Shown: positions 14,662 through 20,472 of the stretch, in pieces | Position numbering within the stretch: the first letter of the stretch is position 1 | How the letters are laid out: every line of letters begins with the position of its first letter | Virus record (IMG/VR): IMGVR_UViG_3300010316_000066 | Coordinates: 1 to 20,552 of that record | DNA length: 20,552 nt | Direction: 5' to 3' (one strand) | From: a virus | The notes under the pieces: model-generated | Databases searched by the model: none | Seen by the model: only the letters and a program-made list of their open reading frames with translations | Told to the model about the DNA's origin: nothing | Translations under genes and position numbers: made by a program

Positions 14662-14696
14662 AAAAAAAGGGACGTCCACACACACGCAGACGTCCC
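14662..14696 (-). terminator. Rho-independent terminator closing the CobS/CobT-like unit
   Basis: On the minus strand, GGGACGTC pairs perfectly with GACGTCCC around a 12-base loop, followed by seven T residues (plus 14668-14662). It lies 17 bases after the DUF6283-type stop and would end the long transcript from about 20113. Confidence 0.92.
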
Positions 14697-14712
14697 CAAC
14701 CTTCACTCTATC

Positions 14713-15120
14713 TCAGCCAGCCTTCCCCTTCCTCACCAGCTTATCAATCACAGCCCCTGCCTCCTCACTCGGCGCATCAATATCCTTCATGCCATGCCTC
14801 GCTGCCTCCTCCCCACTCCCCCAAAGCGGCGTCTCGCACTCATACCCGAACACCCTTTCATCAAACTGCTCACCCCTCATCCTCGTCGCCAACCTCATGG
14901 CCATCAGGTTGTCACTCCCATGGCACCCCAGCCACCCAGCACACAGCCCGCCATCCCTCTGGTGACACATGAACAGTCCCGCACCCCCTTTCATCAACTG
15001 TTCTCCCATGTCCCCATCATAACTGGGCAGCTTCTCATACTCGCTCCTATCCCACACACCGCTCGGCACATCCTTACGATACGGACAAGACGCGCACGGC
15101 TCTCTCGCTACGCTCACCAC
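14713..15120 (-). CDS. DUF6283-type Cys-rich protein
   Basis: A 135-residue protein with the metal-binding pattern Cys9-x2-Cys12 ('EPCASCPYRKDVPSGVW'), then Cys52-His53 ('LFMCHQRDG') and Cys60/Cys66-His67 ('LCAGWLGCHG'). This order matches what I know of DUF6283, a phage and actinobacterial family of unknown function that probably binds zinc. The C-terminal half is acidic and helical. The start is GTG, either at 15120 or 15117; the second overlaps the upstream stop as GTGA. No strong ribosome site is visible, so translation probably relies on coupling. It is the last gene of the unit. Confidence 0.75.
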   Translation of the reverse strand: MVSVAREPCASCPYRKDVPSGVWDRSEYEKLPSYDGDMGEQLMKGGAGLFMCHQRDGGLCAGWLGCHGSDNLMAMRLATRMRGEQFDERVFGYECETPLWGSGEEAARHGMKDIDAPSEEAGAVIDKLVRKGKAG

Positions 15121-15518
15121 CTGATAATCGACAGCGCAAAAAACACGAGGCTCACTACCGCCCCCGCAGCAATCAGCGTACTCTCCCGCTTCAACCGCTT
15201 GATCTCCTTATCCATCCCTTCCATCACATCACTGGCCTCTTTCATCATCTGCACCTTACTCGTCTCCTCCTTCACAAGACGCACCAGCGACTGCCAGACC
15301 ATGCTCACCCGATCATCTTCGTTCATCCGGTCCATGACTTCCCCCAACTTCTCATGAGACCCCCGTATATCCCTCGCATCCAGCCTCACCTCCTCCGTCT
15401 CACCACTCGCAAGCGGCACCTCCATCAGTATCAGCCCCCGCTCCTGTGCTCTCATTCTGCGGCGGATCAGTTCATCCAGTTCATCCAGTTCATTCTTCGC
15501 TGCACTCGCCTTTGCCAT
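15114..15518 (-). CDS. Tail-anchored coiled-coil membrane protein
   Basis: A 134-residue protein. The start is set at ATG 15518, overlapping the upstream stop (TGATG). Residues 7-30 and 52-113 are charged helices with coiled-coil character ('MMKEASDVMEGMDKEIKRLK'), and residues 114-132 are one transmembrane helix ('TLIAAGAVVSLVFFALSII') ending in 'RW'. There is no signal peptide, so it would be anchored by its C-terminus with the coiled coil in the cytoplasm. No family is recognised. Next to the AAA+/VWA genes, it may attach that machinery to the inner membrane; this is inference from context. Confidence 0.78.
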   Translation of the reverse strand: MAKASAAKNELDELDELIRRRMRAQERGLILMEVPLASGETEEVRLDARDIRGSHEKLGEVMDRMNEDDRVSMVWQSLVRLVKEETSKVQMMKEASDVMEGMDKEIKRLKRESTLIAAGAVVSLVFFALSIIRW

Positions 15519-15739
15519 CACACAATCCCTCTCGCTTCGCTCGCTGTCACAATCTCTCTCTCGACCTCACGGCAGCACTCTCGCACCGCCGCCCAGTCAT
15601 CCTGCCGCACCCCCTTACTCTTCACCCGCCGCGCAACCTCCAGCCAGAACGGTCGGTGTGACCCCCTCCGGGGCCACATGCTCAACCACTCACGTCTTAC
15701 GACCACACCACTACCTCGCTTCTTGCGTCCACCAATCAT
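15518..15739 (-). CDS. Small basic hypothetical protein
   Basis: A 73-residue protein rich in Arg and Lys ('GGRKKRGSGVVVRREW', 'RRVKSKGVRQDDW') with a helical C-terminus ('AAVRECCREVEREIVTASEA'). The ATG overlaps the CobT-like stop (ATGA) and its own stop overlaps the next start (TGATG). I do not recognise a family. The basic first half could bind nucleic acid or the acidic linker of the CobT-like protein encoded just upstream. Confidence 0.7.
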   Translation of the reverse strand: MIGGRKKRGSGVVVRREWLSMWPRRGSHRPFWLEVARRVKSKGVRQDDWAAVRECCREVEREIVTASEARGIV

Positions 15740-17835
15740 GCCGCACGTCCCTTCACTCTGCTGCGCTTCCCCTTCGTGGCCTTCATCAGCCCATGTGCAG
15801 GCTTCGCCATCCCTCCCTTACCCAAGAGGATGGCACCCAGTTCACCCATCGCAACCCGTGCCAAGTCCCGCACGTTGTGCACGACCACAGCCTTCGGGTA
15901 ATACCGCTGCACCGCCCGCGTCATGATGCCGATGCCGACACACTCCACACCCTCACCCTCGATGAAGTCCACGGCGTCCCGCAGGTGCTGCTGATACATG
16001 TCCTGCGCCGCGTAATGGCTGCCGCCCCTCACAAGTTTGTACGAAAACGCTGGCTCGCCATCGCTCAAGACCATCATGACCTTGCGCTTTTCAGGGCGCT
16101 TCGCCAGCCTCGTGTACGCTGCGATCAGCGCCTCGCTGTCCGCATTGTTCGCGTCCACCGCATCCACAATGCTCACCAGTGGACCCTTCGCATCCACAAG
16201 ACGATCATCAAACGCCTTGAACAGCGGCATTTCCAACGGCTCCACACGCCCAAACCCCGGCTTCTTATTTTCCCAGTCGTTGGTAAAGCCGATCACCTCA
16301 AGCGCCACACCAGTGCGCCCAACAGCCTCACAGATTGCCAGCACACAGTCCTGTGCAACCCGCGACTTCCCGTCTGACGACATGCTGCCGCTCAGGTCCA
16401 CCACCACCTGCAAAGCTGTATCAATGTCCCTGCTCTCGTCCCGCTGCTTGCGTATATCCTTGCGCCCTGCCATCGCCGCAACGAACCGCCGCGTATCCAG
16501 CTTGCCGCTCTCCAGATTGCGGTGCCAGTCCCGCTCCACTCTGGCCATCAGCGCCCGCTCCAGCCCTCGCCGCATCACGTTGACGTCGCCACTCATCTCC
16601 GCAACCTTGCGGTTATACACACTGGCCCGACCACCACGCAGCACACGCATCCAGTGTTCAAACCTACTCTCCCCCACAAAATCTGGCCGCGTCTTCATCT
16701 TGGCATGTGGGAACCAGTCATACTTCTTCGCAGTGCTCACGTAACTCTTGCTCGCATCGACGTCCCCACTACTCAACTTGGCTTCCTTCAACTCCTTCTC
16801 CAAGACCTCCCCAATCTCTGGCATCTTGATCTCTTTCGGCTTCTCCTTCTTCTCGCCATCCGGCTCACCCGTCACGTCCAAGCCTGTCGGCTCGCCATCC
16901 TCGCCGTCACCCATCGCGTCTTGGCCACCATCCTCGGCGTCGCCCTTACCTTCCTCACCGTCTTCGATCTCGGCGTCGGCTTCACCGCCTTCACCCTCAC
17001 CTTCTTCGGCCTTGCCCTCGGCTTCACCTTCGCGCTCACCTTCACCCTCTTTGCCTTCGCCCTCACCTTCTACGTCTTCACGCTCACCCTTCTCACCCTC
17101 ACCTTCACCCTTGCCTTCACCATCCTCACCCTCTTCGCACTCACCCTCTGGCCCCTCACCCTCTGCGCCTGACCCTGCGCCTTCACCCAGTTCCTTGGCG
17201 ATCTTCTCGGCCAGCTTGCAGGCATCGACAGTGTTCTTGCACCCTGCCAACTCACCGATCCAGCGCTCCAGTGCCTCCCGCATTGGCGCATCCAGCATGT
17301 CCAGCAACTCACCGCACGTGCTTTCGCCGTACCCCTTACGACCCTCCCACGTCAGGCCCACAGCCACGGCACACGACGGCTCACGCAACTGCTCTTCCGT
17401 CACGCGCCCTTCACTCACGGCCAGCAGCAACTCCCGATTGACGCTGGTCGTTGTCGCCCGCAGGTTCTTCTGGCTGCCCGGATAGTCCCGCATGTGCAGA
17501 CGTTCGATGCGCACATCCTCAAGGGCTTGCAGGATGTTATCCACCAACGCTGGCCCTTCCTTCGCAATTTTACGGCCTGCGTTCCACCTCTTCCGGTACG
17601 GCTGCGCTCCCTTCATGTCGGTGTGCCTTACGTGCGCACTCTCATGGTCGCCGAACCCCCGCATCACAAGCTGGGTCCATTCATCCACCTCCTTGCCCTC
17701 CACCAACGCTGGATAGTAGATCACACTGCCGTCCGTCCTTGCCCCCTTGCCTTCGAACACCACCTTGATGTCCTTCTTTCTCCCAAATACTTCACTCGTT
17801 CCCGTCATCTCATGTTGAAACATATCGCTACGCAT
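15736..17835 (-). CDS. CobT-like protein: HExxH metallopeptidase motif, Glu/Gly linker and VWA domain
   Basis: A 699-residue protein. The start is set at ATG 17835 with GAGGAG upstream; an earlier in-frame ATG at 17898 lacks a site. Residues 1-215 hold His64-Glu65-x-x-His68 ('DHESAHVRHT') and 'ALEDVRIERL' (104-113), whose Glu107 or Glu111 could be the third zinc ligand. Residues 217-332 are an extreme acidic linker of Glu, Gly, Asp and Lys. Residues 470-675 form a von Willebrand A domain with a MIDAS motif Asp480-x-Ser482-x-Ser484 ('VVVDLSGSMS') and 'VLSDGEP' (589-595). This is the layout of CobT-type partners of MoxR/CobS AAA+ ATPases. No CobN is present, so cobalt insertion is unlikely; remodelling of a protein target is more plausible. 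The tail is basic. Confidence 0.85.
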   Translation of the reverse strand: MRSDMFQHEMTGTSEVFGRKKDIKVVFEGKGARTDGSVIYYPALVEGKEVDEWTQLVMRGFGDHESAHVRHTDMKGAQPYRKRWNAGRKIAKEGPALVDNILQALEDVRIERLHMRDYPGSQKNLRATTTSVNRELLLAVSEGRVTEEQLREPSCAVAVGLTWEGRKGYGESTCGELLDMLDAPMREALERWIGELAGCKNTVDACKLAEKIAKELGEGAGSGAEGEGPEGECEEGEDGEGKGEGEGEKGEREDVEGEGEGKEGEGEREGEAEGKAEEGEGEGGEADAEIEDGEEGKGDAEDGGQDAMGDGEDGEPTGLDVTGEPDGEKKEKPKEIKMPEIGEVLEKELKEAKLSSGDVDASKSYVSTAKKYDWFPHAKMKTRPDFVGESRFEHWMRVLRGGRASVYNRKVAEMSGDVNVMRRGLERALMARVERDWHRNLESGKLDTRRFVAAMAGRKDIRKQRDESRDIDTALQVVVDLSGSMSSDGKSRVAQDCVLAICEAVGRTGVALEVIGFTNDWENKKPGFGRVEPLEMPLFKAFDDRLVDAKGPLVSIVDAVDANNADSEALIAAYTRLAKRPEKRKVMMVLSDGEPAFSYKLVRGGSHYAAQDMYQQHLRDAVDFIEGEGVECVGIGIMTRAVQRYYPKAVVVHNVRDLARVAMGELGAILLGKGGMAKPAHGLMKATKGKRSRVKGRAA

Positions 17836-17882
17836 GGTTATCTCCTCTTGCGCTAGTGCTTGATTGTACTCTCGTGTGTGCT

Positions 17883-17935
17883 GACCGAGGCGCGTCACGC
17901 CTCAGTCCTTACGGCCCGCCTTGTCAGCGGGCCGT
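17883..17935. repeat. Two tandem hairpins between the CobS-like and CobT-like genes
   Basis: ACGGCCCGC (17911-17919) pairs with GCGGGCCGT (17927-17935) around seven bases, and GAGGCG (17887-17892) pairs with CGCCTC (17898-17903). Both genes are read on the minus strand, where no T-run follows either stem, so they are more likely RNA stability or attenuation elements than terminators. In the plus direction the first stem is followed by TTGCTTT. Confidence 0.75.
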
Positions 17936-17947
17936 TTGCTTTCCGGC

Positions 17948-20113
17948 TCAGTAATCGAAGACACGCTGGGCAATACCTGCCAGCACCGCCCTGTCCTGCT
18001 GCGTGGCACGGTCCAGCACAGACGTAGACACCGCTTCCTCCACGGCCTTCCCCCGCTGGTCCTTGGGCCAGTACGTCGAGTACACGTGGAGCAATTCAGC
18101 GAGGTCCATGTACCCCCTTGGCGTGATGGGCTGGAGTACAGTCGCATCCTTGAACGCCTGCAAGTGTTCGGTCACATACGCCCCGACCTTCCCTCTCAGG
18201 CCCTTATCCAGAGCAGGCGCAGCCTTCTCGATCAGCTTCATGCGATCCTCAGGTGCCAGATACTTGACTTCCATCCAGCGCTCGAACCTGTCCAGCAGCG
18301 CAAGACTTTGCTGCCGTGCACCCTGATACATGCCCTTCTCGTCACCCTGTCCGACGGTATTGCCTGTCGCAAACAACCTGCTCATGCCATTGGGCTTCAC
18401 GATCCGGCCACCATCTTCAAGGATGCGCAGTCCGTTACCCTCCAGCACAGACTGCATCGCATACATGATGTCTGGCCGTCCGAAGTCGAACTCGTCGAGG
18501 CACCCAATCACTGGCCCTCCGATCATCTTGGGCAACAGGCCCTCAAGGAACCTGCTCACGGTCACGCCATCCTGCACGATCAGTTCATCCTTGCCGATCA
18601 GCATGTCCCGCGTGATGTCGCTGTCCATGTTCAACCGCATGAAGGGCCAGTGCATCTTGGCCGCAACCTGCTCGACCAAGGTCGTCTTGCCTGAACCCGT
18701 ATCTCCATGGAGATACATGCGCTTGTTCCCCACAATGCTGGTCAGCACACGGAACAACTCGAAGGGCCGGAACACGTAGTCCTGATTGACATGCGGCACA
18801 TCGGGATGCTCACCCTCCCACGTCCACACTGGCACATCAAAGCGGAACGTATCCGCCCCAGCCTCAACCCCGAACACCTCACACGCTGGCTTCACCATCC
18901 AGTGGCCCTTCGGCACAGCCCCAGAGACGCTCTCTACGTGCACCTTATCGCTTGGCTTCATGATCCCCAACGCTGGTGCAGAGACGGCCTTCTCCGCCGC
19001 CTCTCTGGCCTCCTGCCGCGCCTTCTCGGCATCCCCCTTGGCCTTCCGCAAGGCAGCTTCCAGCCCGTTCACCGCCACGACCAGTGTCTTGAGGCTTGGC
19101 ATTGACGCCGCACTCAGCGTCATGTCCACCAGCTTCACGACGCTTTCGTCTGTGGGCAGGGTCAGTTCTGTGAACTCGCGCACGTCTACGTCTACGTCTG
19201 TCTTCGCCATGTCTGTGTCTTCCTCTGTTGTTGTGTGTGTTGTTGTCTTCGTCGTCTCGTCCAAGGCGTCGTGCAGAACCCCTGCTATGGCATCCCGCTC
19301 AATCCCCGTGTCGTTCAGCGTCTTCTCCACGCTCAAGGCAATCAGGCCCTCGTCTGCATCGAGCCAGACTTGGTACATCTTCGGATCATACACGCCGTGG
19401 ACCCACTCACTGGCCCGCTTCGACAGTGCATGAAAGCTCGTCTCTTCGAGGTGCTTACAGAAGGCGTTGATTACCTTCTTCATCAGCACCCGCATCTCGC
19501 CTGCGCTGGGTGCTTCGGAAATGTGTCCACGACCTTGAACATCGCAGGCATAGAGCGCGGCCAGCCCAATGATGTGGCTGGGCAACGATACCTTGATCGT
19601 CACTGGTTCAGGCTTAGTCTCAGGCACCTCGCTGCTCTCGGTGTCACCAGTAAGGAGGTCCAGCAGGTACTCCTTCACGATTGCCGTGCCTGCCATGCTC
19701 ACGCTCTCGCCCAAGGCGTAGCCCGTCTTGCCCTTCGCAGACTTCACACCGCGCTTCGCAGGTACGACCATGGCATCAATGACCATGGTCCAGCCCTTGT
19801 TGTAGAAGCAAATCTGCAAGAGCGCCCTCATACTCAGGGCATCACGCAACCCTGCCAATGTAGCAGGCGGGTTGATCTGCGCGTCACCGCCCCCGATCAA
19901 AGGCGAGGCTGCGTAGACCCCCTCAACCCCATCGTCACCCACCTTGTGGTGTGTCCGCAGGATTTCATGGGCGTGGTGTCTCAGGTCCGCCCGCTTCTGG
20001 GCGAAGTCGTCTTGGTTCAGGATGCGCCTCAGTTCCCCCGCCCAAGGCGTCATAAGTTTTCCGGTAACGCTAAAGTACACGCCGACCTCCACTGGTTTCC
20101 TTGTCTTCGTCAT
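17948..20113 (-). CDS. CobS/MoxR-like AAA+ ATPase with a long N-terminal region
   Basis: A 721-residue frame. The C-terminal part (about 440-720) is a MoxR/CobS-type AAA+ ATPase: Walker A 'GDTGSGKT' (470-477), Walker B 'CLDEFDF' (538-544), sensor 1 'FATGNT' (581-586) and an arginine-finger region 'LLDRFERWMEV'. It should power a remodelling reaction with the CobT-like VWA protein encoded next. Residues 1-285 are a separate domain with no recognised family ('GVYFSVTGKLMTPWAGELRR'), joined by a Thr-rich stretch 'ETTKTTTHTTTEEDTD'. Right after it, Met302 has its own ribosome binding site and could start a 420-residue form, typical in size for phage CobS. The ATG at 20113 has AGAAGAGGA upstream. 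Confidence 0.85.
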   Translation of the reverse strand: MTKTRKPVEVGVYFSVTGKLMTPWAGELRRILNQDDFAQKRADLRHHAHEILRTHHKVGDDGVEGVYAASPLIGGGDAQINPPATLAGLRDALSMRALLQICFYNKGWTMVIDAMVVPAKRGVKSAKGKTGYALGESVSMAGTAIVKEYLLDLLTGDTESSEVPETKPEPVTIKVSLPSHIIGLAALYACDVQGRGHISEAPSAGEMRVLMKKVINAFCKHLEETSFHALSKRASEWVHGVYDPKMYQVWLDADEGLIALSVEKTLNDTGIERDAIAGVLHDALDETTKTTTHTTTEEDTDMAKTDVDVDVREFTELTLPTDESVVKLVDMTLSAASMPSLKTLVVAVNGLEAALRKAKGDAEKARQEAREAAEKAVSAPALGIMKPSDKVHVESVSGAVPKGHWMVKPACEVFGVEAGADTFRFDVPVWTWEGEHPDVPHVNQDYVFRPFELFRVLTSIVGNKRMYLHGDTGSGKTTLVEQVAAKMHWPFMRLNMDSDITRDMLIGKDELIVQDGVTVSRFLEGLLPKMIGGPVIGCLDEFDFGRPDIMYAMQSVLEGNGLRILEDGGRIVKPNGMSRLFATGNTVGQGDEKGMYQGARQQSLALLDRFERWMEVKYLAPEDRMKLIEKAAPALDKGLRGKVGAYVTEHLQAFKDATVLQPITPRGYMDLAELLHVYSTYWPKDQRGKAVEEAVSTSVLDRATQQDRAVLAGIAQRVFDY
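19208..19224 (-). promoter_or_regulatory. Internal translation start region within the CobS-like frame
   Basis: On the minus strand GAGGAAG (19224-19218) lies seven bases before the in-frame ATG at 19210-19208. The preceding bases are ACACACAACAAC-rich, like the leader of the frame's own start at 20113 (ACACACAACGAG then AAGAGGA). This start would give a protein of 420 residues with the complete AAA+ domain. Confidence 0.55.
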
Positions 20114-20397: not shown

Positions 20398-20430
20398 CAA
20401 ACAAAAGGGCAGCACCCTGCGGTGCCGCCC
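20398..20430 (-). terminator. Rho-independent terminator upstream of the CobS-like unit
   Basis: On the minus strand GGGCGGCACC pairs with GGTGCTGCCC (one G-T wobble) around a four-base loop and is followed by TTTTGTTT. It would end the transcript of the partial gene at the right edge and insulate the CobS/CobT-like unit. Confidence 0.88.
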
Positions 20431-20472
20431 TCACTCTCGTCGTCGTCGTCTTGCTGGCTTACTTCGGGAAGC

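Follow-up and report, generated by a model that had tools for sequence, protein, structure and literature searches.

The T4-like cyanophages have cobS among their core genes (PMC3037559), and ecological studies have tallied phage cobS with the auxiliary metabolic genes for B12 (e.g. PMC9983427). In one such reading, phage CobS and CobT together with the CobN of the host insert cobalt and raise cobalamin, e.g. for a B12-dependent ribonucleotide reductase; there the two are considered cobalamin genes, and the label 'peptidase' a mistake (PMC8651126). For Roseobacter phage CRP-810, the nearest isolate to the virus analysed here, cobS and cobT were described as auxiliary metabolic genes of uncertain function, and cobT as a lower-ligand-activating enzyme, which is a different protein sharing the name (PMC11288001). 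A pair of MoxR and metallopeptidase-vWA genes has been reported from group 2.2 jumbo phages, with virion assembly as the proposed function (PMC7824862). Among open papers we found none that ties the jumbo-phage pair to the phage CobS/CobT annotation.

The window and its transcription unit

The window, i.e. the whole stretch of DNA that was analysed, spans a virus record from end to end (20552 bases, GC content 57.5%). The IMG/VR contig L002 matched it over 11.8 kb at 99.8%. Other genes in the window encode an internal virion protein fragment, an amidase, a dCMP deaminase, a Cas4-type exonuclease, a Sak4-like annealing protein, a primase-polymerase and a RusA-like resolvase. The cobS and cobT genes adjoin a regulator and an integrase, not a polymerase.

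A single transcription unit on the minus strand (20113..14668) contains the genes for a CobS-like protein, a CobT-like protein, a 73-residue protein (s73), an anchored coiled-coil protein and a DUF6283 protein, followed by a terminator. All five open reading frames listed in an earlier note on this DNA are present, and so is the terminator it placed after them, a strong one at 14668..14697 (minus strand; fold z -3.3). On the other side the unit is bracketed by a terminator-like hairpin at 20405..20432 (minus strand), approximately 300 nt upstream of cobS. The overlaps of 1-4 bases described earlier were found between cobT and s73 (4 nt) and between s73 and the gene of the anchored protein (4 nt); the latter gene overlaps that of the DUF6283 protein by 7 nt, or by 4 nt from the second GTG. 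Between cobS and cobT there is no overlap. The CobT-like protein most likely starts at ATG 17835, since its relatives start at the same residue, and this ATG has a Shine-Dalgarno sequence (AAGAGGAG); the gap between cobS and cobT is therefore 112 nt. Two strong tandem hairpins are predicted in this gap (17883..17935, minus strand; fold of 17836-17950, z -4.5), and the ratio of CobS to CobT is possibly tuned by them.

The CobS-like protein (17948..20113, minus strand, 721 aa) is a MoxR-type AAA+ ATPase (AAA_5 2e-12, phrog_249 1e-42) with an N-terminal extension of roughly 300 aa. Its Walker A motif, GDTGSGKT, is located at residues 470-477 as claimed (18706..18683, minus strand), and the core is kept in 29 relatives. 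An in-frame internal ATG is found at codon 302 (19210..19208, minus strand), with GAGGA shortly upstream and an ACA-rich, leader-like stretch before it, and CRP-810 cobS has a similar internal ATG at codon 144. A second, shorter CobS product from the internal start is possible.

Adjoining the AAA+ gene is the gene of the CobT-like protein (15736..17835, minus strand, 699 aa; CobT_C 7e-26, CobT N-domain 5e-07), which consists of an N-terminal zincin-like domain, an acidic linker and a C-terminal VWA domain. The VWA domain (15823..16446, minus strand) scores 91.7 bits against CobT_C, where the cut-off is 21, and matches the solved CobT 9uka at 8e-52. It contains the MIDAS motif DxSxS as DLSGS, D480/S482/S484 (16398..16384, minus strand); this motif and the HESAH discussed below had both been noticed before.

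The s73 protein (15518..15739, minus strand) is basic, with a pI of 11.3, and has homologues in CRP-810-type phages. In about 29 loci a protein of this type starts -82 to +1 nt from the cobT stop. It appears to be a new small protein family, coupled to cobT in CRP-810-type phages, with the pattern W....P.R....FW..V..RVK.R.VR; its model has three helices (pLDDT 76.9) and gave no fold matches in PDB. The next gene (15114..15521, minus strand) encodes a coiled-coil protein of 135 aa, whose C-terminal hydrophobic segment at residues 115-133 bears out the tail anchor that had been claimed (Kyte-Doolittle 2.5 over 19 residues). It was found only in the near-identical L002, with no phage matches. The last gene (14713..15120, minus strand) does encode the Cys-rich protein assigned to DUF6283 (PF19800 1e-31; 110 bits against a gathering score of 27 bits). 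Matches of the small proteins to AbiV, IS256 and DUF6743 were weak and below cut-off, and membership of the unit in a defence system was rejected, as only weak generic ATPase matches were obtained.

The earlier note had taken the five genes as one phage module, possibly acting at the inner membrane. When conservation of the five-gene order was checked, only cobS, cobT and s73 recurred in CRP-810-type relatives. DUF6283 proteins occur in 37 other phage records, in contexts without the cobS/cobT pair, and both the DUF6283 gene and that of the anchored protein adjoin the pair only within the window's own phage population; for these two genes this is the outcome that the note itself had named as refuting. 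The five-gene module thus does not hold, and a site at the inner membrane is unsupported. As judged from the sequences, the conserved unit in CRP-810-type phages is three genes, cobS, cobT and s73, because the s73 gene is kept next to cobT.

A candidate zinc site in the CobT-like protein

The N-terminal domain of the CobT-like protein has an HExxH motif and a distal acidic candidate ligand (H64-E65-x-x-H68, E106-D107), in a numbering that is consistent with the start at ATG 17835. The HExxH motif, H64-E65-S-A-H68 (17632..17646, minus strand), lies in a predicted helix covering residues 52-71 and is invariant in 39/39 alignment rows. The second motif, EDxxxE with E106-D107...E111 (17503..17520, minus strand), is assigned by alignment and model to a predicted helix covering residues 95-117 and provides the candidate third zinc ligand. 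In CobT-like N-domains EDxxxE is located about 25 to 43 residues downstream of HExxH. The model of the domain (pLDDT 90.5) places both halves of the motif on two helices.

Scans of IMG/VR gave about 50 more loci. In 39 IMG/VR homologues with a median identity of 36%, only 13 positions are invariant, among them H64, E65, H68, E106, D107 and E111. In a wider set HExxH is present at the same aligned position in 69 of 71 viral, plasmid and prophage-like homologues (68 aligned as H, E, H, plus cyanophage L014, which is gapped there but has HEVGH), where the rows are partly non-independent and one scan used part of the HExxH...EDxxxE motif. Seventeen of the homologues came from the first scan, in which the motif was not used, and others from plain tblastn. 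Chance does not account for this, as HExxH is found in 2% of shuffled N-domains. The motif is also present in SSU5-type and Rhizobium phages, cyanophage Syn1, Ochrobactrum phage OC and plasmids, and in haloarchaeal viruses as HECGH with NAAEDGAIE (HVTV-1) and as HEVQH with NVLEDNHID, on a separate ORF (HHTV-2). The homologue in ICP2 is without E106. The remaining two of the 71 come from nickie-type and Stenotrophomonas phages (L009 4732-6870 and L010 4906-6981), where the pair is kept and HExxH is replaced by SEIAK and REVST, respectively, as in a natural loss of the site.

Cellular cobaltochelatase CobTs have an N-domain homologous to that of the CobT-like proteins (hhalign E 2e-08), and HExxH was found in none of 37 of them, nor in the solved CobT 9uka. 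Cellular CobT forms one clade (99/98) in a tree with a midpoint root and many long branches, from which L014 and L124 were left out and in which L044, which does have the motif, is mislabelled. Because of this root and these branches, loss of the protease site in cellular CobT is likely rather than certain. The Caulobacter vibrioides control genome has a full chelatase CobT without a match to the CobN family, and cellular CobST may have another role too.

In cyanophages, cobS follows a protein annotated as 'peptidase' inside the gp47-gp46-gp45-gp44 cluster. Three observations identify this 'peptidase' as the counterpart of CobT: its N-domain is homologous to that of the window's protein (E 1e-06; hhalign prob 90.7), cobS and 'peptidase' have equal record counts (365+61+24), and in Ochrobactrum phage OC the gene found at this locus is named CobT and has HESAH. 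Of the two labels, 'peptidase' agrees better with the motif data.

Function of the pair

We consider it probable that the pair joins an AAA+ motor to a VWA-zincin metalloprotease. The CobS-like AAA+ ring would hydrolyse ATP, and the VWA/MIDAS domain of the CobT-like protein would dock on it. The N-domain would be a gluzincin-type zinc metalloprotease, with predicted zinc binding through H64, H68 and probably E106, and with E65 as the presumed catalytic base of proteolysis. The ring may act on a protein substrate by unfolding or pulling it, and so hand it to the protease domain. The s73 protein would be made by coupled translation, and a role as adaptor is speculative.

The pair is found in the contexts gp47-gp46-CobT-CobS-gp45-gp44, next to Pol III alpha, next to a polymerase or primase, and with RecT, an exonuclease and SSB, in lineages that are partly non-independent. 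Since its neighbours are usually replication and recombination genes, the best candidates for substrates might, speculatively, be proteins met in early DNA replication or establishment; the regulator and integrase beside the pair in the window itself count against this. Plasmids have homologues too, in over a thousand records that are mainly enterobacterial. Genes for AAA+, DUF3150 and HExxH-VWA proteins are present in plasmids (L068 5284-9734, L069 5241-9680); on the conjugative pMAQU02 they come after those for SSB, RecT and an exonuclease.

Structural proteins are processed by phages during maturation. This counts for a chaperone-protease of virion assembly, as does an architecture equal to that of the jumbo-phage MoxR and metallopeptidase-vWA pair, for which such a role was proposed (PMC7824862). 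We regard it as unlikely, as the pair is situated in replication and recombination clusters and a conjugative plasmid without a virion has the AAA+ and HExxH-VWA homologues. A role in replication or establishment is favoured over one in virion assembly.

Somewhat more doubtful is a remodelling chaperone without proteolysis, in which the metal site of the N-domain is structural or vestigial. The motif is indeed dispensed with in two phage lineages and in all cellular CobT, and the search for a zincin fold gave little: with Foldseek the N-domain model had no solved relatives in PDB (best E 0.38), and zincin matches in a viral library were weak and not significant. However, the would-be catalytic residues are strictly kept across very divergent viruses. 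DUF2201 metallopeptidase was tried as a near relative of the domain and rejected (hhalign prob 0.4%).

A role in cobalamin synthesis is supported by the homology of the pair to the chelatase subunits, by a B12-dependent reductase family over cut-off in 6/36 records (mainly T5S1-type, plus HVTV-1), and by CobN in 2/3 bacterial genomes bearing a phage-like CobT. Against this, the pair scores far under the chelatase equivalog cut-offs (CobS-like, 162.4 bits against 558.55 for TIGR01650; CobT-like, 115.5 bits against 759.05 for TIGR01651), and the zincin site is missing from the chelatase form. The B12-dependent reductase had no matches in CRP-810-type records. All 121 sampled genomes from the order of the prophage-like L081 (Rhodobacterales-type) exceed the cut-off for a full CobT, and those hosts therefore have a CobT of their own. 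The pair is carried by many enterobacterial phage-plasmids, while the E. coli control genome shows no CobN. The absence of CobN reported earlier for the window extends to 63 related records, many of them fragments. The pair is probably not a cobaltochelatase, and the cobalamin reading is the least probable of those considered.

The proposal of the earlier note, a machine that remodels or cleaves proteins, is a better fit: an ATP-driven cutting or remodelling machine is more likely than a vitamin gene because the zinc-protease signature is intact here and absent from the true B12 enzymes. More tentatively, the pair may belong to a family of ATP-driven zinc proteases found throughout viruses, with members in tailed phages, haloarchaeal viruses and also conjugative plasmids; the family would serve DNA replication and be misfiled as B12 synthesis, and cellular CobT would be a descendant or sister that lost the protease site. 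Should the pair prove to be a zinc protease machine, the cobS counts of ecological studies would be uninformative on B12, and simple point mutants would open an unexplained core function of viruses to testing.

Comparison with known systems

What this work adds is a systematic comparison with chelatase CobT, a link between both annotations of the pair, and s73 as third conserved gene. The aerobic cobaltochelatase CobS/CobT (TIGR01650, TIGR01651; PDB 9uka) resembles the window's pair in its homologous AAA+ and VWA proteins, acidic linker and adjoining genes, but its CobT has sequences of the DAFAL or DSMAL types where the window has HExxH, and the window's pair is without CobN. In the group 2.2 jumbo phages, an AAA+ gene likewise adjoins one for a VWA protein whose N-terminal domain is a metallopeptidase, a likeness of architecture; CobS and CobT are not mentioned there (PMC7824862), and the long CobS extension and s73 distinguish the window. 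The T4-like cyanophages share adjoining AAA+ and HExxH proteins (cobS and 'peptidase', T4-GC 146), whereas their CobS is shorter, s73 is absent and the pair lies between gp46 and gp45. Roseobacter phages of the CRP-810 type have cobS, cobT, s73, a LuxR-type regulator and an integrase in an order identical to that of the window, which differs from CRP-810 in having the anchored protein and DUF6283.
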